In this document: in pieces, positions 5,501 through 36,750 of the stretch
Position numbering within the stretch: position 1 is the first letter of the stretch
Layout of the letters: each line of letters starts with the position of its first letter
Assembly (NCBI GenBank): GCA_027858735.1
Contig: JAQICC010000427.1
Coordinates: forward strand, 1 to 47,777
DNA: 47,777 bases
Source: Salinivirgaceae bacterium
Lineage (GTDB): Bacteria > Bacteroidota > Bacteroidia > Bacteroidales > SZUA-534
Reading direction: 5' to 3'
The notes under the pieces: model-generated
Seen by the model: the letters and a program-made list of their open reading frames with translations, nothing else
Database searches by the model: none
Told to the model about the DNA's origin: nothing
Position numbers and translations under genes: made by a program

Positions 5501-7975
5501 GCTTATACTATTTACCGTAGCACTTATGGTGAAGTCGCCAATTGTGGTTGCTGTAAAAATACCGCTGCTTGTAATAGTTCCTCCACCACTGGTTGACCAA
5601 GTTTCGGATATACTATAACTAGCGCCATACTGATCAAAACCAGAAGCTTTATAATTAATACTCTCACCAATTTTTATGGTATCTTTTTCAGGTGAAATGC
5701 TAATTGAATCTAATACTGAAGGAGCCTTGGAGAATATATATATAGAATCTTGACCAATAATACCATCCTCTGCAGCGGCCAGTACTTTTAGCTTATGCCA
5801 GCCTTCGCTAATGTTGGTTAGTATGTCATCATTCTGCCCATTTTCGCCCCAAGTGTAGGGGGCCAAATTTTCTTGTCGAACAAAGTCATCATCAAAATAT
5901 AGTTGTGCATAATCAATGCCATTGAAATGGGTAATGTCTGTAAAAAGCGTGATATCATCTCCTACTGCAATAGTATCATTATTTACAGGAGAGGTAAATG
6001 TAATGGCTGGTTTATCGGTCGGATCAGCCACCAGAATTGTAATGCTTGTATCGTTAGTTGTAATTATTCCGCTTGTTGTTGCTTTACTGGTTGCCAAAGC
6101 TCTCAAAGTATGCGTTCCTTTGGTTAGGTTAGATAGTGCTGCATCAGTTGAGTTGGTCCAATCGTAAGATGCTAAGTTTTCTTGATGCAAGGCTATTTCG
6201 TCAAAATATAGTTTAACATTGTTTATACCTTTGCTATGTGTTGCATCTACTTGAACGGTCATGTTCGAGCCTACTGCATAAAAATCATTATTTGCTGGAT
6301 AGTTGTATTTAATGGCTGGTAATTCATAGGTGTCGTTTACAAAAAAACTTATAGTACTGTCTTTGGTGCTACCATTACTTAGAGTGGCTATCGCATTTAA
6401 AGTATGCGTGCCCGGTACTAAGTTGTTTAGTGCACTCGATTCTGTAGCCCACTCAAAAGGAGCTGTATTATCCTGATTCACTAAAACATTATCGTAAAAC
6501 AGTTGCACCTTACTTACAGTGTTAACAAAGTCGGAGGCAATTACACTTACAGATAAGTCTCCGGCTTTGTATAATTCATCGCCATTTTGAACATTGTTGA
6601 AAAAAACAACTGCTGCACTGTTCACATCTTCAGTTATTGGAGCGGTGCGAGTTGTACTTTGAGCCGATGTATAAATATATCTTTTAATAAGAGTACCCGT
6701 ATTGTTAAAAACCAGCATGTGGGTCGATTCAGAATTAATAAAGCCGTTATGTTCAGCTGAGATGCCTGCGTCTATTGCAATTGTCAAGTCTTGGGTTGTA
6801 CCATAGGCATTGTTTAAGGCTACATTATAGTTGAATGATACAGTTTTGCTGCGGTTTAAAATCATTACCGAAACGCTATCGGCATCTTTCATGGCCACAA
6901 TATCAACATCGGCTTGGTTGTCGAAATTAGTAGCGTAATTTTCGCGCATGTTTTGCCCCAATAGCAAGGTGTGGTAATAACTTGATCGGCCTGTTAAATT
7001 TTCTACGTCAAATAAACTAAGGTCTGTTCCCATTCTATCACCATCGTTTTTGCCTTCATAAATGCTCCAGGCGCACATGGTAAAGGCTTCTTTTTTCATT
7101 CCTTCGCCATACAATTCGGCAAAAAATTGTCCCGCATTAAAACTCCAGGTTTTTTTGTCCTCATCAGTAGTTTTGTCGTTGTTGTAGTGTGAGTTAAATT
7201 CACCTATCCCCCAAGAGAGTTGTTTGTCGGCATCTCGGCCTGTGTTAATGGTTGCAATTTTGCCTGTTAAATCATTTATTACCCATTCTATTTCAGAGGC
7301 ATCAGTTATGTCATATCTATGAAAAGTCACAATATCAAGATAATAGTAACCTTCGCCAGGTACTTTTCCGGTAATGTCATCAGTACCTCCTAATAGTGCC
7401 CCGTATTCAGATGTTTTATAATCGGCATGGTCAGGTCCAAGAATGGTTATTGTGGGATCTACCGATTTTAAAGCAGCGGCAATTCGTTTAAAGTAAGTTG
7501 CTATTTGTGTTGTTGTTTGGTTGCCACCACCATCATGATCGGGTTCGTTACCAATTGACCAGTATTTAACATTTAAACTGTTTGTTACATTTATATAGGT
7601 AATAAAATCAATGGTTTGTTGAGTGGTTAAATTATCTCGAACCTGAACAAGAGGTTCAGCTCCCATGGCCTGAATGGTTTCAATATATTCTTTGTATTCG
7701 GTATCGGTATAACCATTGGCTCCAAACCCACCAATTCGTATGGTTTGAAAACTGGCCTTTTCCATTTTACCACCTGGAGTCAGAAGGCTATTTACTGTTG
7801 AACCCGGATACCAGTAGTTATTGCCAAGTAGGTAAGGGCTAACAATTTGTGCCTTTGTTATGATGCTTAAACCCAATAAAAGCATAATAATTATTGTTGT
7901 CAACAAAGCAAATTCAATTCGTGTGTATTTTTTTAGTTTTAATTTATTGTAGTTTTTGTCTTGGTAGTCTTTCAT
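2504..7975 (-). CDS. Giant secreted multidomain glycoside hydrolase: N-terminal clan GH-A-like TIM barrel, Ig-like repeats, eight Big_2-like repeats, CBM6-like region, T9SS C-terminal sorting domain
   Basis: 1823-aa ORF; N-terminal hydrophobic segment; GGFGANGYT...WSIGNEPDHDGGGN (acid/base NEP) and GIGEFNSHY (candidate nucleophile); eight ~83-aa repeats with (F/Y)DQ...SxNGGGxIxxxGxF; C-terminal YPIPSKDILYIKG...LKSGLYIVQF sorting domain. Confidence 0.85.
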   Translation of the reverse strand: MKDYQDKNYNKLKLKKYTRIEFALLTTIIIMLLLGLSIITKAQIVSPYLLGNNYWYPGSTVNSLLTPGGKMEKASFQTIRIGGFGANGYTDTEYKEYIETIQAMGAEPLVQVRDNLTTQQTIDFITYINVTNSLNVKYWSIGNEPDHDGGGNQTTTQIATYFKRIAAALKSVDPTITILGPDHADYKTSEYGALLGGTDDITGKVPGEGYYYLDIVTFHRYDITDASEIEWVINDLTGKIATINTGRDADKQLSWGIGEFNSHYNNDKTTDEDKKTWSFNAGQFFAELYGEGMKKEAFTMCAWSIYEGKNDGDRMGTDLSLFDVENLTGRSSYYHTLLLGQNMRENYATNFDNQADVDIVAMKDADSVSVMILNRSKTVSFNYNVALNNAYGTTQDLTIAIDAGISAEHNGFINSESTHMLVFNNTGTLIKRYIYTSAQSTTRTAPITEDVNSAAVVFFNNVQNGDELYKAGDLSVSVIASDFVNTVSKVQLFYDNVLVNQDNTAPFEWATESSALNNLVPGTHTLNAIATLSNGSTKDSTISFFVNDTYELPAIKYNYPANNDFYAVGSNMTVQVDATHSKGINNVKLYFDEIALHQENLASYDWTNSTDAALSNLTKGTHTLRALATSKATTSGIITTNDTSITILVADPTDKPAITFTSPVNNDTIAVGDDITLFTDITHFNGIDYAQLYFDDDFVRQENLAPYTWGENGQNDDILTNISEGWHKLKVLAAAEDGIIGQDSIYIFSKAPSVLDSISISPEKDTIKIGESINYKASGFDQYGASYSISETWSTSGGGTITSSGIFTATTIGDFTISATVNSISAQAQVHIVSNRVLSSMQISPIDTSIVVEDSVQYTAIAYDQFDEIINGNISYSINGGESISNDGLYKASSTGNFIVTATNDTVSASGSIEVTALPVLSKIEIIPTSANFIIGDSTTFIAKPYDQFDKTISSNIVWTISGGGTINTEGFFTAETEGEFVVTATDDTISAKASIQIFSSSFLTTIEIKPTADSIFIKDSILFTAIGFDQTGDSINTTIIWSTNGGGDIDSNGLFIANTSGQYLITATDDAIFNSATITIFEAPEVTQLIISPDTAKISIGDSIKFNALAFDQVGKIIACTPTWNTSGGGTIDSTGYLSASSKGEFTITASGNGIIDSAIVIINEVPFLSNLVLLPENDTIFVGDVIEYTATGFDQNGDPIIVSPAYSVSGGGTINEAGIFTATSSGIFEVKAKVNNISTTSTINIKDLPYLTLIDIKPDTANVYVGKSFQFDASGVDQYEDSISATLNWSITGGGTINEEGLFTADSIGEFKVIASASNVSDTAELMVKMAPVLTKIEVVPGNTSLYVGDTIAFKAFATDQYGHAISTNIKWSINGGGNINYKGLFIAEKSGYYEVNACSDTLYALAKLSIKDSTLVNIIPGIIESSDYSLMQGIELANHFICLADSNDWMEYQLNVIDSGKYSMHFVTTNTEANSFIEVSFNNTVLDSLTLSVSNNNDSLPVLLNKGEYTLKLKVLGGKFDLEKIEFRKSIELPEISFTTPVNLLEIPGGSDLQVQVDAKHSNGIEQVDLFVNNLFVRSENSAPFNWGDNSQNDKLLNKLPLGTYMLKAEAKASSGELSSAYITVKVVADTSLIDSIYFNSFTVLESGKSHKIDVNYISQDTNLIELTLLNEIMEEVSANSINIEAGTSSVTLLLSIPENTVAGINYNLIAKLKPRSSIDEVLASESHENIEITTTTAIALIENQYLQIYPIPSKDILYIKGINTLTELCIYNSIGKLQLSYKLNKQERNKINISELKSGLYIVQFKSKSTTISKRLLKQ

Positions 7976-24929: not shown

Positions 24930-27900
24930 TTAGTTATTTAAAGTCTTATTAATAAATTCTGTAGGCGATTCTCCATATAATTTAGTAAAGCATCTTGTAA
25001 AATAAGGCTGACTGCTAAAGCCTACAGCATACGCAATTTCAGTAATAGACATACTATTTTGTTTTAGTAATTTTAATGCTTTTTTTAATCGAATTCCTCT
25101 AATAAATTCATTAACCGATTGTCCTGTAATTGCTTCAACTTTAATATAAAGCAACGATCTGCTAATATGTATGCGATTTGATATGAATTCAGCATTAATT
25201 TTTTCTTCGTTTATATTCTCGAGTACAATATTAATAATTGACTGAATAAGCTCTTTATCTTTAGTGTCAATTCCTTCATTACTAAATTCAAAATTTGCAT
25301 CCTTTTTAAATTTTTCAATAAGATTCCATCGGTGTACCAACAGATTATTTATTCTACTTTTAAGCAATGTTAGGTTAAAAGGCTTGTAAATGTAGTCGTC
25401 GGCACCAGCCTCAAATCCTTCTATGTTTTTTTCTTCAGAATGGCGAGCCGTTAATAATATTACAGGAATATGGCTTGTTCTTTCATCGGATTTAATGCTT
25501 TTACAAAGCTCGAACCCATCCATATTGGGCATCATAACGTCGCTAATAATAATATCGGGAAAATTAAAAAATGTTTTGCGCTGACCATCTTCACCATCCT
25601 TAGCGGTTAAAACCTCATAATCTTGCACTAACTCATTCCGAATGAATGCTCTGAGGTCTGGGTCATCTTCAACAACCAACACTTTGAATTTATTCTCAGT
25701 TTTTTGTTTGCTCTCAATTTTATTTTTAATCTGTTGTTCAATTACATCATATTTTGTTTCCTCGTCGCTAATTTTTTCCTGTTGGGTATTTTTTTCTAAT
25801 GCGGTTTGTTTTATTATGGGAAGTATAACTTTAAATTCAGCACCTTCGCCGACTTTTGATGATACTGAAATTCTACCTCCATGCAATTCTGTTAATTCTT
25901 TAACCAGAGTTAGGCCAATACCTGTTCCTTCAATTTTGCTGTCAGATTTTTTTGAAGCACTATAAAACCTGTCGAAAATATAGGGTAAATCTTTTTTAGG
26001 AATACCCGTACCATCATCTTTTACGCTAATTTCAATTTCATCGTTATCTGTTTTAGATGATTCGCTGTTCGTTGCTCTTAATTTTTTAATGGACAAAACA
26101 ATACTTCCATATTCTCCAGTATGTTTAATTGAATTTGCTATTAGATTACTTATTATTTTGTCAAGTTTGTCGCTATCAAAACTCATAATCTCTTTTTTTA
26201 GCAACGATTTAAACTCATATTTGATTTTCCGTTGTGTTGCTAACTCATTGAATATTTCCCAAATGTTTTTACTGAATTCTACAATATCCCCTTGCGAGGT
26301 CTCAAGCATTAGGCTACCAGCTTCTAGTTTTCTATAATCCATTAACTGATTTACCATTTTTAATAGTCTGTCGGCATTTCTTTTTATTAGCCGAAGTTGC
26401 GATTTGTGTTCATCAGAATGGTGCTCGCTTTCATCAGAAATAATTTTATCAATTGGAGCCTTAATTAGAGTAAGAGGTGTTTTGAATTCATGAGAGATAT
26501 TTGTAAAAAAGCGAAGTTTCATAAGGTTTGCTTCATGCACATTTTTCAAAGCGATCTTTTCCATCTTAAGCTCGTTTTTAAGCTTTTCACGCATTATAAT
26601 GGCATAGCGAAATAGGTATAAGGTTAAAATAATTAATAGAACATATAAAACTTGAGCCAGCTTTGTTTTCCAGAAGGGTGGGTTAATTTTAATTTTAATA
26701 TTTATGCCCCCAACTTCAGAAATTTGGTCACCATCTACAATTCTTGCTTTGAAAGTATAGGTGCCATGTGGTAAATTTGTATATCGGGCAAATCGTTTAT
26801 TCCCAACAAAATACCATTCAGGGTCAAAACCCTCAAGGGTGTAGGCATAATCTAAATTCTGATAGCGATTGTAGTTTAAAGCTACATATTCAAAACTTAA
26901 GTCTGACTGTTTATAAGAAAGTTCAATTTCCTGTGTTTCTAATACTGATTTTGTTAAAGGCGAATTATTTGCATCTACCTTTTGTGATTTGTTAAATATT
27001 TGAAAATCGATCAAATATAATTTTGGATTAAGTTTGGCATTTAAAATAGTATCAGGATGAAACTTAACAAACCCGTTAGTGCTTCCGAAATACATTTCGC
27101 CTTTTTGCGATTTTAAAACAGATCTTTCGAAAAATTCATGGTTCCCGAGTTCCTCCGCCTTAAAAACTGTTTTTACTTTCTTCGTACTCGGATCAAAGGT
27201 AGATATACCATGCGACGAACTCAACCACAAAATGCCATTATCATCTTCCAAAATACCCTTAATATTTAAAGGTAAATTGTACTTATGTGTTAATCTTTCA
27301 AAGTAAATAGATGTGTCGGTTTCAATAATTTTATCAAGTCCTTTTGAACTTCCTACCCAAATACGCCCTTTTGAATCTTCATGAAGTGTATATACGTAAT
27401 TTGAGCAAATGGTGTTACTATCTTCATTATAGCTATGAAAATATCTGTAGGTTGAATCAAACATATATAGTCCGGTATAGGTAATTATCCATATTCGTTT
27501 TTTACTATCTTCTTTCATACTAACCGCATATGTCGATCCAAGAATGTTCGATTTAAAACTTCCAGGGTTATATTTATTATAAAAGGTATTGGTTTCCGGA
27601 TTGTAAACTTCAATTCCATGTCTGTGGTGCGTTGCCAACCAAACATTTTTGTCAGAATCAATCCCCATTCCTTTAATATTGATTATAGGAACATGATTGC
27701 TCCCATTATCGATTGGGAAAAGGTTTTTTAATTTATTGTTTTTTGTATTTAACTCATAAAGTCCAGCACCCCAACCAGTTATGTATAAGCTATTTTCTTT
27801 ACTTGGATTTTCAATAATAGCCAAAATGCTAGGCGATAAAAAGTTATTTTTCAAATGAATTCGATCAATGCTATTGTCATTGTTTAATTTGTTTATTCCA

Positions 27901-29045
27901 CCATTTCCGGTTCCAATCCAAATGGTACCATTTTTATCTTCACAAAAGGCGCTTACTTTATTGTGACTTATTGAATTTTCATCAAACGGATTATGAACAA
28001 AGTGTTCAAATTTTTTCATATTAGGATTAATAAAGCTTACGCCACCTTCTTGAGTTGTAAACCATAAAATACCATTTTTATCCTCGTATATGTTTGTTAT
28101 AATGTTATTTGCAATTGAATTAGTGTTCTTAATGTCGGTTTTGAAACGGGTAAAATCATCAGTTTCTTTATTGTAAAGGCTAACACCATTATTATCAGTT
28201 CCGAACCATACATTTTTATGGCTATCTTCAAATATTACAGCAAAGTTATGACTGCTTATACTTTTTTCATTATCATTAGTATGAATATAGCTTACTGTTT
28301 GTTGAGTTTTTGTATTATATTTTATAAGGCCGTCAAGTGATCCAATCCAGAATAGGCCTTCGGAATCAAGAAGTATTGGAAAACTTTTAAGTATGGGATT
28401 AGTTTCTGTGCTTACATTATTTTTAAACTCAGTAATTATTTCATTACTCAAATTCATTTTAAAAAGGCCGGAATTATTTTGAATAAGAAGTTCTTGATCA
28501 TTTAATCGAAAAATTTTTCTAATGTGGGTTCTGTGCTTTTGACCATTAATGCTAAAGAGGTACAATTTAAATTCATTTTTTGACGGAATATACTTTGCTA
28601 ATCCATCATTTGTGCCAATCCAAATATTGTCATTCTTATCAATAAAAATACAACGTATTACTGTTCCTGGCAATGAACTGCTGTCTCCGGGTATCAAATT
28701 GTAATTATAGAATTTCTCTTCTGAAATATTGTATCTCGATAATCCATCTTGGTTTGTACCAATCCATATATTATCATGCTTATCTTCAGCTAAACAAAGT
28801 GTAAAATTGCCAGGTAGTGAATGGGGGTCTTTAGGATCGTTCTTATAAACATTAAAATTATACCCATCCCATCGGTTTAACCCTTCTTTGGTTGTTATCC
28901 AAATAAAACCTCTACTATCTTCCAGTACAGCAGTAGTATAGTTGCTTGAAAGGCCATCTTTGGTGCTAATGGTATTAAAACTTATATTTTGACCAGTTAA
29001 GCCAAAAACAGTAAAAACAAGTAATAAATTTAATAATATCCTCAT
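24930..29045 (-). CDS. Hybrid two-component system regulator (HTCS): beta-propeller sensor, Y_Y_Y, histidine kinase, receiver, AraC-type HTH
   Basis: 1371 aa; repeated EDSxGxIWIGTxxGLxxY propeller motifs; FFTNISHEFKTPLTLI H-box; GTGIGLTLVKEL; IIISDVMMPNMDGFELC receiver; C-terminal ITEIAYAVGFSSQPYFTRCFTKLYGESPTEF AraC domain. Confidence 0.96.
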   Translation of the reverse strand: MRILLNLLLVFTVFGLTGQNISFNTISTKDGLSSNYTTAVLEDSRGFIWITTKEGLNRWDGYNFNVYKNDPKDPHSLPGNFTLCLAEDKHDNIWIGTNQDGLSRYNISEEKFYNYNLIPGDSSSLPGTVIRCIFIDKNDNIWIGTNDGLAKYIPSKNEFKLYLFSINGQKHRTHIRKIFRLNDQELLIQNNSGLFKMNLSNEIITEFKNNVSTETNPILKSFPILLDSEGLFWIGSLDGLIKYNTKTQQTVSYIHTNDNEKSISSHNFAVIFEDSHKNVWFGTDNNGVSLYNKETDDFTRFKTDIKNTNSIANNIITNIYEDKNGILWFTTQEGGVSFINPNMKKFEHFVHNPFDENSISHNKVSAFCEDKNGTIWIGTGNGGINKLNNDNSIDRIHLKNNFLSPSILAIIENPSKENSLYITGWGAGLYELNTKNNKLKNLFPIDNGSNHVPIINIKGMGIDSDKNVWLATHHRHGIEVYNPETNTFYNKYNPGSFKSNILGSTYAVSMKEDSKKRIWIITYTGLYMFDSTYRYFHSYNEDSNTICSNYVYTLHEDSKGRIWVGSSKGLDKIIETDTSIYFERLTHKYNLPLNIKGILEDDNGILWLSSSHGISTFDPSTKKVKTVFKAEELGNHEFFERSVLKSQKGEMYFGSTNGFVKFHPDTILNAKLNPKLYLIDFQIFNKSQKVDANNSPLTKSVLETQEIELSYKQSDLSFEYVALNYNRYQNLDYAYTLEGFDPEWYFVGNKRFARYTNLPHGTYTFKARIVDGDQISEVGGINIKIKINPPFWKTKLAQVLYVLLIILTLYLFRYAIIMREKLKNELKMEKIALKNVHEANLMKLRFFTNISHEFKTPLTLIKAPIDKIISDESEHHSDEHKSQLRLIKRNADRLLKMVNQLMDYRKLEAGSLMLETSQGDIVEFSKNIWEIFNELATQRKIKYEFKSLLKKEIMSFDSDKLDKIISNLIANSIKHTGEYGSIVLSIKKLRATNSESSKTDNDEIEISVKDDGTGIPKKDLPYIFDRFYSASKKSDSKIEGTGIGLTLVKELTELHGGRISVSSKVGEGAEFKVILPIIKQTALEKNTQQEKISDEETKYDVIEQQIKNKIESKQKTENKFKVLVVEDDPDLRAFIRNELVQDYEVLTAKDGEDGQRKTFFNFPDIIISDVMMPNMDGFELCKSIKSDERTSHIPVILLTARHSEEKNIEGFEAGADDYIYKPFNLTLLKSRINNLLVHRWNLIEKFKKDANFEFSNEGIDTKDKELIQSIINIVLENINEEKINAEFISNRIHISRSLLYIKVEAITGQSVNEFIRGIRLKKALKLLKQNSMSITEIAYAVGFSSQPYFTRCFTKLYGESPTEFINKTLNN

Positions 29046-29535
29046 ATGGCTGAAATTTTAAACTAAAAATCCTTTTCTCAAGTATTTACAATATACACAA
29101 AAAGTATTGTATTAATTTGATATACTTATTTCATATTCTTCAATGATTATTAAGTATCAAACGTTACTCAAATTATTAGAGATTTAGCCTTTTAACTGAA
29201 TAATTCTTCCATTTGATTAGAACTGTATGCATATAGTGCCATTAAAACAGTATTGAATAATGTGGTACCCATTTACTATATTTTTTTGATTTTACTACTT
29301 GTGTCTCCCCAGATAAGTAGTTTAGGATTTTTACAACAGCGCTGTCAAAATTATTGTTAACTGCTAAGTGATAATAAGCCCTTTTTCGGTAGCTAATATA
29401 GTATGTATTTGTATTTGACTAATACATTATTGTCTATAAGAAATTCAATATTATCCATACATCGAAATTAGAAATATTCATTTATTAAAGAGCGTAGTAC
29501 GACCATAACTTTCCAAGAATTTAAAGGGTGTTTTT

Positions 29536-29816
29536 TTTATTATAACGGAACTTACTGGCAACTTTCCTTATTTTATAGGGGATAGCCCCGAAAAAGTTGC
29601 TTTTGTAGCAACAGAAATATTATTTGCTAATAATCTGTCTAATAGTGCATTATGATTTTTTTTGTTATTTTTAGTAATTCTATTGAAATAAAATCAGTAA
29701 CTTGTAAAGCACCATAAAGTCAATCGTTTAAGATTTGTATCCACAGATTGGTGATTTTTTATTCCCCTAACCCTTGTAAACACTCAATTTCTAAAAGTAA
29801 GTTCCGTTATAATAAA
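29536..29816. mobile_element. MITE-like non-coding element with perfect 21-bp terminal inverted repeats
   Basis: TTTATTATAACGGAACTTACT at 29536-29556 and its exact reverse complement AGTAAGTTCCGTTATAATAAA at 29796-29816; 281 bp, no substantial ORF; internal GTTGCT/AGCAAC hairpin. Confidence 0.7.
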
Positions 29817-30017
29817 TATAAAAAGCAAAATAAACAGTTTGTAATACTCAGTTAAACAGATATATGGATAATGGTATATGCGAATTAAATTATACTGAAC
29901 GTAGGTATTTAATTGTGAAATTATATTTACATCGACAAAAAGCAGGGAGATAGTTAAAGCTGATTTTTTAAAAAACAACAATAAAAAATTCTTGAAAATT
30001 TACTAAAACATAAGTTT

Positions 30018-31838
30018 ATGACTAAAGTAAAAACCCCCAATGCATTCATATTAATACTTGTTCTTGGTTTAAGTATTCAGAGTAGTATGGCTCAAAAATT
30101 AGTACAAAATATTTTCGGAAGAGAATGCCTCAGTTTAAACGGCAGATGGAATTATATAATTGATCCATATGAAATGGGTTACTATGATTATAGATACGAT
30201 CCATTTGATCAGTCGGAAACTGGCCAAGGCGGATTTTATGATAACATTACTAGCGTTATTGAAACTGAAAAAGTGGAATATAATTTTGATTTAGAGCCAA
30301 CTCTAAAGGTACCTGGCGATTGGAATTCACAATATGAAAATCTAAGTCTTTATGAAGGAACTATTTGGTATAAAAAAGATTTCAAGGTAACGCCAAAAGA
30401 TGAAACCCGTTACTTTATTCATTTTGGAGCAGTTAACTATGAATCGCATATATATTTGAATGGAAAGAAATTGGGTTCTCATAAAGGTGGTTTTACCCCA
30501 TTTCAATTTGAAGTAACAGGCAAATTAAATAGGGGTAACAATTTTATTGTACTTAAGGTAGACAATAAACGCAACAAGGATGAAATACCAACCATTAATA
30601 CTGATTGGTGGAATTATGGTGGTATAACCCGTGATGTTACTCTAGTAAGCGTACCTGAAACATTTATAAATGATTATAAAGTTCAGCTTGATAAAAATAA
30701 TAGGAACCTTATTAAAGGGTTTGTGCAGTTAAATGGAAGTGCTTTACAACAAAATGTTGTTTTAAGTATTCCCGAACTTTCCATTAATAAAACATTTAAA
30801 ACAGACGCTACGGGCAAAGTAGAATTTGAATTGCCTGTTAAAAAAGTAAAATACTGGACTCCAAATGAACCTTATAGATATACTGTATCTCTAAGCACAG
30901 ATAATGATAAACAAACGGATCTAATAGGTTTTAGAACCATTAGTACTGAACATAAAAAAATATTATTAAATGGCGAACAAGTGTTCCTAAAAGGAATTTC
31001 TGTTCACGATGAAAACCCATTAATACCCGGTCGATTACGCTCCGATGGTGATATTCGAATGGTTTTAACCTGGGCCAAAGAGCTAGGCTGTAATTACATA
31101 CGCCTGGCACATTACACACACAATGAAAGAACAATTCGTTTAGCCGATGAAATGGGATTAATGGTGTGGGCTGAAGTGCCTGTATACTGGACTATTTCAT
31201 GGGAGAATAAAGATACCTATGCAAATGCTTTAAACCAACTTACAACAGGTATTGAACGAGATAAAAACAGGGCATCGGTAATAATATGGTCAATTGGAAA
31301 TGAAACTCCGGTTACCGAAGCGCGCAATAAATTTATGATGAGTTTAGCTGACCATGTGAGAGAACTCGACAATACACGATTAGTTGCAGCAGCCTTAGAA
31401 GTTGAACGCGAGGGTTTTGATGTAAGAGTGGACGATCCTTTGGGAGAAAAAATTGATTTGGCAAGTTTTAATGAGTATGGAGGATGGTATTGGGGAGGAC
31501 ATCCTTCGAACTTATCGAAATATAAATGGGAGATTAAGTATGATAAACCTGTTGTAATATCCGAATTCGGAGCAGGTGCTCTTGCCGGCTATCACGGAAG
31601 TGATAGTACATTATGGACTGAAGAATACCAGGCCACGCTTTATGTTAACCAAATTAAGATGTTAGAGCAAATTGATGGTTTTAGTGGAATGACTCCGTGG
31701 ATACTTGTTGATTTTAGATCACCAAGGCGTCAGCATCCACAATTTCAGAATTTTTGGAATAGGAAAGGGCTAATTTCTGAAACAGGGCAGAAGAAAAAAG
31801 CATTTTTTATTCTTCAAGAATACTATTCAAAAAAGTAA
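30018..31838 (+). CDS. Glycoside hydrolase family 2, beta-glucuronidase-like
   Basis: 606 aa; signal peptide to SMAQ; LNGRWNYIIDPYEMGYYDY, FLKGISVHDENPLIPGR, acid/base VIIWSIGNETPV, nucleophile VVISEFGAGALAGYHG. Confidence 0.92.
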   Translation: MTKVKTPNAFILILVLGLSIQSSMAQKLVQNIFGRECLSLNGRWNYIIDPYEMGYYDYRYDPFDQSETGQGGFYDNITSVIETEKVEYNFDLEPTLKVPGDWNSQYENLSLYEGTIWYKKDFKVTPKDETRYFIHFGAVNYESHIYLNGKKLGSHKGGFTPFQFEVTGKLNRGNNFIVLKVDNKRNKDEIPTINTDWWNYGGITRDVTLVSVPETFINDYKVQLDKNNRNLIKGFVQLNGSALQQNVVLSIPELSINKTFKTDATGKVEFELPVKKVKYWTPNEPYRYTVSLSTDNDKQTDLIGFRTISTEHKKILLNGEQVFLKGISVHDENPLIPGRLRSDGDIRMVLTWAKELGCNYIRLAHYTHNERTIRLADEMGLMVWAEVPVYWTISWENKDTYANALNQLTTGIERDKNRASVIIWSIGNETPVTEARNKFMMSLADHVRELDNTRLVAAALEVEREGFDVRVDDPLGEKIDLASFNEYGGWYWGGHPSNLSKYKWEIKYDKPVVISEFGAGALAGYHGSDSTLWTEEYQATLYVNQIKMLEQIDGFSGMTPWILVDFRSPRRQHPQFQNFWNRKGLISETGQKKKAFFILQEYYSKK

Positions 31839-31918: not shown

Positions 31919-34900
31919 ATGAGAAAATTTACACACTTAAATTTATGTAAACCTATTTTGCATAGGTTAATAAAACAACAAAAATTGAAGTCCGTTTCAA
32001 TGTTGATTGTTGTTTTGATTTTGCAATTGTTTTCGGCTGAAACCTTTGCGCAGAACACTTCAATTACAGGAAAAGTAACCGATAATACTGGTGAAGGAAT
32101 TCCTGGGGCTACCATTGTTGTTAAAGGAACCTCAATGGGAACCGCAACCAATTTTGATGGAGTATATTCAATTGACAATGTACCTGCCGATGCTCAACTA
32201 GTGTTTTCATACATAGGTATGTTAGCAAAGGAAGTACTTGTTGAAGGTAAAACTTCCATTGATGTTACTTTAGAAGCTGATATGATTGGTTTAGATGAAG
32301 TAGTTGTAGTTGGTTACGGAACCATGAAAAAGGCTGATCTTACAGGTTCTGTTTCTACGCTAGGTAGTGATGATATGGTTAAACGTGCGGTCCCCAATAT
32401 TACTTCTACACTAAGTGGAAAAATGACGGGTGTTATTGCCCGTCAGGAAAGTGGACGACCAGGGGGGGATGCTCCTAAGTTTACGATTCGAGGTAAAAGT
32501 ACTTACGGTAATAACGATGCCCTGGTACTGGTTGATGGTATTGAGCGTGAGTTTGACAGAATAGACCCGAATGATATTGAAAATATTACCATATTAAAGG
32601 ATGCGGCATCGGCTGCAATTTATGGTGCTCGTGGTGCTAATGGTGTAATTTTGGTTACCACAAAGCGCGGTAGCGAAGGTCCTGGAACCATTACGTACAG
32701 TGGTTCATATACCATGTCAACGCCATCGTTTAAGCCTGAATATATGACTGTTGGAAATTATGCAAAATATTTGAATGAAGCTTCGTATATTTCTGGGGGT
32801 GACTCTATTTTTACGCCTCAGGAAGAAGCTGAATTTATGAATGGAACGCGCCCAGGAACTGATTGGTGGGGCGAAATGATGTCGGATTGGGCTCCTATGA
32901 AACAGCATAATATTTCGGCATCAGGTGGTAGCGACAAGGCTAAATATTTTATGTCTTTGGGTTATATCGATCAAAAAGGATTATATGATGCAGCAAATTA
33001 TAAACGCTATAATGTACGATCAAATTTAGATGCAAAACTGACGGATAACCTAAAAGTTGGTTTAGATATTGCGGCACGCACCGATGTTACCAATGAAGGA
33101 ACAGTTAGTGAAGACAAACTATACCAAACCTTAAGAACAGCTTTACCTTATGTACCCGCTTATATTCCTGAAGAATTGCGCACTCCTGGCGATGAGTTGG
33201 GTTTAAATAGTAACGGAGCTGCAGGTAGCCCTATGGGTGAATCTATGTATTCAGGCTACAAACAAGGTAATAATGTATTTCTTGAAACTAAAATTGGTCT
33301 TGAATATAGTTTTGATTATGTAACTGGTTTAAAAGCAATTTTTGATTATTCTTATGATAAAAAATTCTATAATTTCAAAGAATTTTCAACCCCATATATT
33401 TTAAATTTCTACACTTACGAAAATGGTTTGACCAATACACAACCAAGCGAAACTAACATAACTTTGGATCAAACAAAATCAGAAGCCACAAAGAAAACCT
33501 TACAAACAGGTTTAAATTATGATAAAGCCTTTGGAGCTCATAATATTTCTGGAGTTTTATTGATTGAACAATCAGATTATAGATGGGATAAAATTGGAGC
33601 ATACCGTGAAGGTTTTATTTCAGATGCTATTGATCAAATATTTGCTGGATCGGATATTAATAAAAATAACTTAGGTGAAGCAAGAGAGGAAGCTCGCCGA
33701 GGATACATTGGTCGTGTTGCATATAACTATAATAATAAATATTTGGTTCAAGCCAATGCACGCTACGATGGTTCTTATAATTTTCCTAGCGATAGTCGTT
33801 TTGCCATGTTTCCAGCATTTTCTGCAGGTTGGCGTATTTCTGAGGAAGAATTTATGCCAGAAATACCATACTTAAATAACTTGAAGTTACGAGCTTCATG
33901 GGGGCAATTTGGTAACGATAGAATTAACATTGACGACAATGATGTATATTTTCCGTATTATTCAGGTTACGAATATAACGAAGGAGCGATTGTTGGAGGT
34001 AAATTTTATGGAGGTGTTAGACCCACAGGACTTGCTAATTCAAATATAACTTGGGAAACTGCTGTTAGTAGTAACGTTGGTCTGGAATTCGGATTTTTTG
34101 AAGGAAAATTATCAGGTGAATTCGATTATTTCCAAAAGAGTACCAAAGATATCTTAATGAATCAGGATGCAGCAGTTCCTGCAACATTTGGAGCTGAATT
34201 GCCAGCCGAGAATCTTGGAGAAGTTGATAATTGGGGTTATGAAGGCGCTTTAAACTATAAAAATAATTTTGGTGATTATTTTGTTTCTGTTGGGGGTAAC
34301 ATAACTTATGCAACCAGTAAAGTTAAGTATATTGCTGAAGCTCTTGATGTACCTTCAAGGATAAGAAAAACGGGTCAACCTTTTGATGTTCGTATTGGTT
34401 ATGTATCAGAAGGGTTATTTCAAACTCAGGAGGAAATTGATGCTTGGGCTGTGCAAGATAATAATGGTAATAAATCGCTTCAGCCTGGAGATATCAAATA
34501 CAAAGACATAAATGGCGATACTTTAATTAACGATGAAGACCGTATTATTTTTGGACAGTCATCCACACCAAAATTGGTATTTGGCTTAAACTTTAACGTT
34601 GAATATAAAGGTTTTGCTCTAGCTGCCAATTTCCAAGGAGCAGCTGCATACGATAACTATAAAATGGTAGAGTCCTTCCAAAAAGAATACAACTCCTTAG
34701 AAGTTTTGGCTGACAATTCATGGAGAGAAGGTAATGAAGATGCGAGATATCCACGTCTTGAAATTGGAAGGTCAAATAATAATAGTTCCTATTCTTCATA
34801 CTGGATGTACGATGGTTTTTATATTAAATTAAGAAATCTAGATGTTTCGTATACTTTGGCAGATAACAGCTATTTAGATAGGGTAGGTATTGATAATGTC

Positions 34901-35026
34901 GTATTGTCATTGTCTGGAAGAAATATTTTGACATTAGCGGGAAATAAAGATTTTGATCCTGAGAATCCAAATATGAATTATCCAATAATGAAGACCTATA
35001 CTTTTGGCGTAAGTATTACTTATTAA
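31919..35026 (+). CDS. SusC-family TonB-dependent outer membrane transporter
   Basis: 1035 aa; carboxypeptidase-like N-domain (ITGKVTDNTGEGIPGATIVVKGT), LDEVVVVGYGTMKKADLTGSV, plug domain (ILKDAASAAIYGARGANGVILVTTKRG), C-terminal beta-strand. Confidence 0.97.
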   Translation: MRKFTHLNLCKPILHRLIKQQKLKSVSMLIVVLILQLFSAETFAQNTSITGKVTDNTGEGIPGATIVVKGTSMGTATNFDGVYSIDNVPADAQLVFSYIGMLAKEVLVEGKTSIDVTLEADMIGLDEVVVVGYGTMKKADLTGSVSTLGSDDMVKRAVPNITSTLSGKMTGVIARQESGRPGGDAPKFTIRGKSTYGNNDALVLVDGIEREFDRIDPNDIENITILKDAASAAIYGARGANGVILVTTKRGSEGPGTITYSGSYTMSTPSFKPEYMTVGNYAKYLNEASYISGGDSIFTPQEEAEFMNGTRPGTDWWGEMMSDWAPMKQHNISASGGSDKAKYFMSLGYIDQKGLYDAANYKRYNVRSNLDAKLTDNLKVGLDIAARTDVTNEGTVSEDKLYQTLRTALPYVPAYIPEELRTPGDELGLNSNGAAGSPMGESMYSGYKQGNNVFLETKIGLEYSFDYVTGLKAIFDYSYDKKFYNFKEFSTPYILNFYTYENGLTNTQPSETNITLDQTKSEATKKTLQTGLNYDKAFGAHNISGVLLIEQSDYRWDKIGAYREGFISDAIDQIFAGSDINKNNLGEAREEARRGYIGRVAYNYNNKYLVQANARYDGSYNFPSDSRFAMFPAFSAGWRISEEEFMPEIPYLNNLKLRASWGQFGNDRINIDDNDVYFPYYSGYEYNEGAIVGGKFYGGVRPTGLANSNITWETAVSSNVGLEFGFFEGKLSGEFDYFQKSTKDILMNQDAAVPATFGAELPAENLGEVDNWGYEGALNYKNNFGDYFVSVGGNITYATSKVKYIAEALDVPSRIRKTGQPFDVRIGYVSEGLFQTQEEIDAWAVQDNNGNKSLQPGDIKYKDINGDTLINDEDRIIFGQSSTPKLVFGLNFNVEYKGFALAANFQGAAAYDNYKMVESFQKEYNSLEVLADNSWREGNEDARYPRLEIGRSNNNSSYSSYWMYDGFYIKLRNLDVSYTLADNSYLDRVGIDNVVLSLSGRNILTLAGNKDFDPENPNMNYPIMKTYTFGVSITY

Positions 35027-35055: not shown

Positions 35056-36750
35056 ATGAAAAAATATAATATATTACTAATGAGTTTGTTATTGTTCCTT
35101 TTAGTAGGCTGTAATGACGATTTTCTTGACAAAGCGCCGCTTAATGTAATTAGTAGCGAACAAGTATTTAACGATGAGCAATTTGTGGAGGCTTACTTGT
35201 ACCAAATTTATAATTACATGCCTTGTGGATATGGTCGTAGGAGTCTAGATGATCCATCTGACGAGAAGACTCCTGGTGTAAATACTTTGGGATATGGGAA
35301 TGCCTATATTCTCGACTGTTGTACTGATATTTTATGTAATAAAAGTCCATGGGTTGAATCGAGTCTAACCATAGTGCCAGGTTTATTTAATTCAAGTGCT
35401 AATGATTTAAATAACTGGAATCAAAAATACGAAGCCATTCGCTATTGCAATGATTTTTTAGCAGGGACTGAAAATAGTGAATTAGATCCTGTTTTTATTA
35501 CCAGAGTTAGAGCTGAGGTTCGATTTGTAAGAGCATTTCAATACTTTGATTTAGTGCGTCGTTTTGGAGGCGTACCTTTAATTGATGGTTTGCAATCGCT
35601 TGATGATATTGAAGCTTTAATGGTACCGAGAAATACAGCGGATGAGATATATGATTTTATTGACTACGAATATGCTGAAATAGCGGATGATTTGCCATCG
35701 GCAAGTGAATTAGGGACTGAAGACTTAGGTAGAGCAACAAAAGAGGCATGTTGGGCTTTAAATGGTAGGGCCATGCTTTTTGCAGAACGTTGGACTCGTT
35801 CAGCGGAATTATCAAAAATGGTTATGGATGCGAATACATATACATTAAGTTCTGATTATAATTTATTATTTCAATCACGTGGTGGAGATCCGGAAGTGAT
35901 ATTTGAAGTATTATTTAATGGAGCAGAAAAAGGTCATGGTTTTGATCGCTTATCATTTCCTTATAGTTTTAGAGCCGACTGGGGGTCGCAGATTATCCCA
36001 ACTCAAGATTTAGTGGATAGTTATGAAACCATTAATGGTTTATCTATTGATGAAGATCCTGCTTATGATGAAACAAACCCATATGCCAATCGCGATAGCA
36101 GACTTGCTGCAACCGTTTTATATCAGGGAAATACATTTAAAGGAACAGTAATGGATTATTCCATAAGCTCTGATCCTGATGTTGTAGCTCACGGTCCTGA
36201 TGCTCCTCTTGGCGAGGTAAATAATACAACAACAGGATACAATATGAATAAATTCATAGATCAAGCTTTGGACAATGGCCCAGGATGGGGTAAAAGTCAA
36301 ACAAGCTGGAAAGAAATTAGATTGGCTGAGGTATTGTTGAATTATGCAGAGGCTCAAAACGAAGCTGCAGCAGGTCCAGATGCATCGGTTTATACAGCCA
36401 TTAACGCCGTTCGAACTCGTGCCGGACAGCCTGATTTACCTACCGGATTATCAAAAGAAGAAATGTTTGAACGCATTGTTCAAGAACGCAAAGTTGAATT
36501 AGTAGGTGAAGGTCATCGCTATTGGGATATTAGAAGATGGCATATTGGAGTTGAAGTATTGAATGAGAAAAATACCTATGGCATGTTTGTTTATAAAGAT
36601 GCTGCAACAGGCGAACTAACCTACGAACGTACAATGGTTCCAATAACAAAGCGTCCAGCTTTCCTTTATTTAGAACATTTTGATTTAATGCCAATACCGC
36701 AAGATGAAATGGATAAAAATTCAAATTTAGTTCAGAATCCGGGCTATTAA
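35056..36750 (+). CDS. SusD/RagB-family nutrient-binding outer membrane lipoprotein
   Basis: 564 aa; lipobox LLVGCNDDFLDKAPLN; RAEVRFVRAFQYFDLVRRFGGVPLI; ERIVQERKVELVGEGHRYWDIRRW; C-terminal LMPIPQDEMDKNSNLVQNPGY. Confidence 0.97.
   Translation: MKKYNILLMSLLLFLLVGCNDDFLDKAPLNVISSEQVFNDEQFVEAYLYQIYNYMPCGYGRRSLDDPSDEKTPGVNTLGYGNAYILDCCTDILCNKSPWVESSLTIVPGLFNSSANDLNNWNQKYEAIRYCNDFLAGTENSELDPVFITRVRAEVRFVRAFQYFDLVRRFGGVPLIDGLQSLDDIEALMVPRNTADEIYDFIDYEYAEIADDLPSASELGTEDLGRATKEACWALNGRAMLFAERWTRSAELSKMVMDANTYTLSSDYNLLFQSRGGDPEVIFEVLFNGAEKGHGFDRLSFPYSFRADWGSQIIPTQDLVDSYETINGLSIDEDPAYDETNPYANRDSRLAATVLYQGNTFKGTVMDYSISSDPDVVAHGPDAPLGEVNNTTTGYNMNKFIDQALDNGPGWGKSQTSWKEIRLAEVLLNYAEAQNEAAAGPDASVYTAINAVRTRAGQPDLPTGLSKEEMFERIVQERKVELVGEGHRYWDIRRWHIGVEVLNEKNTYGMFVYKDAATGELTYERTMVPITKRPAFLYLEHFDLMPIPQDEMDKNSNLVQNPGY

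Follow-up and report, generated by a model that had tools for sequence, protein, structure and literature searches.

A low-copy MITE of the IS1634 family between an HTCS gene and the GH2-SusC-SusD genes in a Salinivirgaceae bacterium

The intergenic region between an HTCS gene and a GH2 glycoside hydrolase gene in a Salinivirgaceae bacterium contains a real transposed element, which is present in low copy number and is of a known, ordinary kind, namely an IS-derived MITE of the IS1634 family. The element was found in a stretch of 47,777 nucleotides, hereafter called the window (Table 1), and it almost certainly descends from an IS1634-family IS that lost its interior, transposase gene included, and was inserted in this shortened form at TTATAA in the gap between the two genes. 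A preliminary description of the window had suggested a non-autonomous element at this site, which is borne out by three intergenic copies, by a 6-bp duplication, by an intact IS of this genome that shares the ends, and by related elements in other genomes.

Table 1. Coordinates of the MITE and of neighboring features in the window.
Feature	Position	Strand	Evidence or remark
HTCS sensor/regulator	24930..29045	-	Pfam Reg_prop, Y_Y_Y, HisKA, HATPase_c, Response_reg, HTH_18
Target-site duplication TTATAA, left copy	29540..29545	.	Identical to 29807-29812
MITE, non-autonomous IS1634-family derivative	29546..29806	+	Two more genome copies; both ends align with IS1634-type ends
Left TIR CGGAACTTACT	29546..29556	+	Identical to the 11 bp ending the C203 IS and relatives in G084, G074 and G270
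Left part, homologous to transposase-upstream IS end; contains TGTAGCAACAGAAA	29546..29650	+	Alignment with IS and relatives; inner homology limit approximate
Candidate terminator-like hairpin GTTGC TACAAAA GCAAC + TTTTT	29596..29612	-	Points at HTCS gene
Right part, homologous to post-stop-codon IS end; TGTATCCACAGAT common with C212 IS end	29731..29806	+	Alignment
Right TIR, reverse complement of CGGAACTTACT	29796..29806	-	Inverted-repeat search; alignment with IS ends and relatives
Target-site duplication TTATAA, right copy	29807..29812	.	Identical to 29540-29545
GH2 glycoside hydrolase	30018..31838	+	Pfam, NCBIfam
SusC	31919-35026		Follows GH2; Pfam, NCBIfam
SusD	35056-36750		Follows SusC; Pfam, NCBIfam

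The MITE is located within the 972-bp gap that separates the HTCS gene on the minus strand from the divergent GH2 gene on the plus strand. The stretch originally delimited (29536-29816) stops 201 bp before the GH2 ATG, in agreement with its earlier placement between the divergent HTCS and GH2-SusC-SusD transcripts, about 200 bp before the GH2 start. This stretch begins with TTTATTATAACGGAACTTACT (29536-29556, plus strand), the exact reverse complement of which is found at 29796-29816, forming a perfect 21-bp inverted repeat. Such a repeat is indeed very unlikely by chance, as none of 100 dinucleotide shuffles contained any match at three or fewer mismatches. A literal 21-bp TIR was nevertheless rejected when the copies were aligned, the repeat being resolved into an 11-bp TIR, a 6-bp palindromic duplication and 4 bp of flank. 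Judged from the aligned sequences, the element is 261 bp long (29546-29806) and not 281 bp, because identity between the copies runs from CGGAACTTACT to AGTAAGTTCCG. By the same alignment, its true perfect TIR is the 11-bp sequence CGGAACTTACT, and the remaining 10 bp at either end of the stretch belong to the target. Thus, the description as a MITE-like element stands and the repeat is real at its coordinates, whereas the lengths of 281 bp and 21 bp do not hold. The longer repeat is apparent because TTATAA is self-complementary and because the four outermost bases, TTTA and TAAA in the flanks, are complementary by accident, the probability of which is about 1% in this gap. We caution that, next to a palindromic target duplication, a TIR can appear to be perfect and to have twice its real length.

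Being short (<500 bp) and without a transposase gene, the 261-bp element has the features of a MITE, and its strand was set by the transposase-upstream end of the IS. It was correctly described as non-coding and hairpin-containing: no ORF of more than 35 aa lies mostly inside either the 29536-29816 stretch or the MITE, one terminator-like hairpin is present, and single-strand folding is more stable than in shuffled sequences (z = -3.6 and -4.3 for the two strands), which is largely due to the inverted ends.

The TTATAA hexamer, earlier named as a candidate target duplication and noted to be palindromic, is a direct 6-bp duplication. Among duplication lengths of 2 to 10, the flanks of the MITE are identical only at length 6, and random 6-mers in the AT-rich gap agree with a probability of 0.0018. 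The implied empty site is TTTATTATAATAAA. Perfect 6-bp duplications were also identified around an intact IS of this genome, on contig C203 (TTATAC), and around elements on contigs C581 and C305 of a MAG labelled Acetofilamentum sp., G084 (TTAATA, ATTTAA). A second IS1634-type IS of the same genome, on contig C59, has the 6-bp duplication TTACAA. The duplication length of the presumed parental type, 6 bp, is shared by the window MITE and the C203 IS, while 5 of 6 positions agree at a copy on contig C32. From 46 flanks, nearly all of them from G084, the preferred target was derived as TTWWAA, with the frequencies T(.80) T(.96) W W A(.98) A(.67); the commonest target in this predominantly G084 set, with 8 of the 46 flanks, is TTATAA, as in the window. 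A clear target rule, TTWWAA with a 6-bp duplication, thus emerges for this group of IS1634-derived MITEs.

In line with the earlier suggestion of a genome-wide search, two further copies were identified at other intergenic sites on contigs C32 and C54 of the same genome (G000; 5.99 Mb in 452 contigs). The total of three copies, at unrelated intergenic sites, is a low number. The C32 copy (6324-6583) is complete and 98% identical to the window MITE, from which it differs in the alignment by four substitutions and a one-base indel; its duplication is imperfect (ATAAAT/AAAAAT). The C54 copy (1126-1329) is likewise 98% identical, with other DNA in place of its right end. The earlier suggestion of recent activity is only moderately supported: the copies have diverged by about 2%, one right end is gone and one duplication is degraded.

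The search for an autonomous IS with the same ends was also successful. An intact IS of 1.94 kb with the ends CGGAACTTACTT...AAGTAAGTTCCG and TTATAC on both flanks is located on contig C203, and it carries CGGAACTTACT at both termini, as expected if a MITE shares its TIR with an autonomous IS. Another end of this type was identified on contig C212, close to the contig end. The single 575-aa ORF of the C203 IS matches the IS1634-family transposase model NF033559 in NCBIfam with 259.6 bits (cut-off 100), and the protein also matches PF01609. It contains the motifs YDITSSYF, IGDRG and Y-x2-L-x3-E-x6-K, which we take to be the catalytic D, D and E regions of a DDE transposase. Members of the IS1634 family are 1.5-2 kb long, with ends of the form C-----YT and AT-rich duplications of 5-6 bp, and most of them lack the R of the YREK motif (PMC2266710). 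The C203 IS agrees with the family in length (1.94 kb), end (CGGAACTTACTT), duplication (TTATAC) and transposase type, and it is the obvious candidate mobilizer of the MITE. Two more IS1634-type transposases are encoded in the genome, at C59:5514-7226 (50% identical to that of C203, in an IS of 1944 bp with different ends and TTACAA) and at C326:1167-2870 (46% identical), which indicates that several IS1634-type subfamilies with a common kind of target coexist in the genome.

Roughly the first 105 bp of the MITE match the end of such an IS that lies upstream of the transposase gene, and roughly the last 75 bp match the end that follows the stop codon. The C203 IS and the MITE have only these terminal and subterminal parts in common. 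No match to any IS found was obtained for the middle 80-100 bp, and a parent closer than the C203 IS therefore probably exists or existed. When 393 genomes of the order were searched with the transposase, none was returned at E <= 1e-100 outside this genome; a left-end pattern scan of viral contigs returned nothing, and plasmid-borne relatives of the transposase reach only about 30% identity.

In the mechanism that we propose, an IS1634-family IS would have lost its interior, including the transposase gene, to give a short element that kept both ends. Insertion into TTATAA between the HTCS and GH2 genes would then have duplicated these 6 bp, and an IS1634-family transposase that recognizes ends starting with CGGAACTTACT may move the MITE in trans, now or formerly. 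One could instead picture the truncated relic of a different IS family that resembles IS1634 ends by chance, given that its interior is unmatched. We regard this as highly improbable, because homology to IS1634-type ends extends over about 80 bp on the left and 76 bp on the right (z = 16 for the first 80 bp and z = 18 for the last 76 bp in comparison with the G084 relative), duplication length and target are the same, and no ORF is present. Even less credible, in our view, is that the stretch is a cis-regulatory structure, such as an operator or terminator, of the HTCS and GH2-SusC-SusD genes and not a transposed element. Its site between divergent transcripts, the stable fold of its inverted ends and the terminator-like stem directed towards the HTCS gene could be read in this way. 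However, this explanation is largely refuted by the presence of the same sequence on C32 and C54, in intergenic regions that are not related to this one, and the transposon-type ends and duplications, the lack of a Bacteroidetes-type promoter inside the element and the lack of an Rfam match also argue against it. Furthermore, the element is not a single copy kept at one position throughout the relatives: copies occur elsewhere, and the MITE is absent from 19 of the 19 other genomes of the family, one of which has a chance-level 24-bp match; none of the relatives searched belongs to the same genus. No orthologous empty gap was recovered by synteny, since the GH2 homologs in three relatives (49-53% identical within the family) and a paralog on contig C79 have different neighbors.

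A true transposed element may still, once inserted, alter the expression of the locus, by moving regulator sites away from the promoter or by ending transcription that runs leftward. In favor of this unlikely scenario are the lengthening of the control region by 267 bp, the minus-strand terminator-like hairpin and an imperfect 14-bp inverted pair that brackets the MITE (29450-29463/29859-29872). Such a pair is, however, about what would arise by chance in 972 bp of AT-rich DNA (by a rough estimate, a few per region). Moreover, an exact -7 motif for HTCS transcription occurs only once, at 29353 on the minus strand; it is situated on the HTCS side of the MITE, nearer to the gene, so that the HTCS transcript need not cross the element. 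The consensus of Bacteroidetes-type promoters is TTG-N18-20-TAnnTTTG. This pattern is found near the left end of the C203 IS and its relatives but not inside the window MITE, which was therefore rejected as a promoter donor. An RNA gene or riboswitch was also considered and rejected, as no Rfam match was found. The number of terminator-like sites in the MITE is one, a weak 6-pair stem, versus 0.3 expected in shuffles. The proposal that the element could move or insulate the promoter is thus not upheld, the element having no promoter inside and this stem as its only terminator-like site. That the insertion rewired the HTCS-controlled locus, for example through the hairpin and a 267-bp spacer between regulator sites and promoter, and was kept for that reason, we consider very unlikely. 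On sequence grounds, a regulatory role of the MITE is possible but unsupported, and a passenger is the default reading. For the polysaccharide locus the MITE is probably only a spacer, and we infer that its arrival between the HTCS and GH2 genes was a neutral passenger event. The literature searched by titles and abstracts held nothing relevant on MITEs or IS in the control regions of polysaccharide loci. Separately, imperfect repeats (ATTATCCATACATCGA and ATTATATTTACATCGA, with the inverted partner GATATATGGATAAT, at 29450-29465, 29859-29872 and 29920-29935) flank the MITE; they could be regulator sites, and their occurrence is at about chance level.

As in the IS1634 family, which is related to IS4 (PMC2266710), the ends have C as their first base and YT at positions 7-8, the AT-rich duplications are 5-6 bp long, and the 1.94-kb partner IS encodes a large DDE transposase without the R of YREK, whereas the window element is only 261 bp long and has no transposase. 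MITECca01 of Cardinium is derived from the IS982-type ISCca4 (PMC9769881), and a 187-bp ISL3-type MITE with intergenic copies is known in Microcystis (PMC11448079). Like these two, the window MITE is shorter than 300 bp, has kept parental ends and lost the interior, and co-exists with an IS of the parental type in the same genome; its copies are also intergenic, as in Microcystis. Unlike them, it belongs to the IS1634 family and has only three copies in the genome.

Our findings add a group of IS1634-derived MITEs to this order. Elements with the same ends and the subterminal TGTAGCAACAGAAA were identified in other families of the order (G084, G074 and G270), and in a pattern search of genome contigs such records were MAGs labelled Acetofilamentum sp. 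and Paludibacter propionicigenes (SulCav isolates; DYKL, DYOH, DYMG). These elements share the TIR, TGTAGCAACAGAAA and the target preference with the window MITE; two of them are complete, with a length of 259 bp (G084, C581 and C305, with perfect 6-bp duplications). They differ in that overall identity is about 69%, the interior is not demonstrably homologous and one MAG has a far higher copy number. The interior of the window MITE is not clearly shared with the G084 elements, and common descent of the entire 261-bp and 259-bp MITEs was rejected, as the ends are homologous but the interior is marginal (15 of 500 shuffles as good; 122 of 500 for the center).

G084 yielded 90 pattern matches, versus 2 for the reversed control. 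Classified by the bases that directly follow the TIR inwards, about 40 ends are left-type (ACAA/GCAA) and 43 right-type (TTAA). Most are no further than about 55 bp from the end of a contig, which is the pattern that a repeat collapsed in the assembly produces. No IS1634-family transposase of this type was found in the binned contigs of G084. The 447-bp element in G074 has retained its two ends but no more of the transposase gene than the final 72 codons; this is what one would expect of an intermediate on the way to a MITE, and shows how such elements can arise. As a side observation, the DYKL01 records of the MAG labelled Acetofilamentum sp. (G084; most of L074-L121) comprise about 40 copies with these ends, most of which break the assembly. 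Likewise, at four IS left ends (L113 in DYMG01000024, L124 on contig C112 of G270, L112 and L119) the IS sequence gives way to other DNA shortly before or shortly after the transposase begins (MYLQFN), which suggests one-ended remnants or contigs mis-joined at the repeat.
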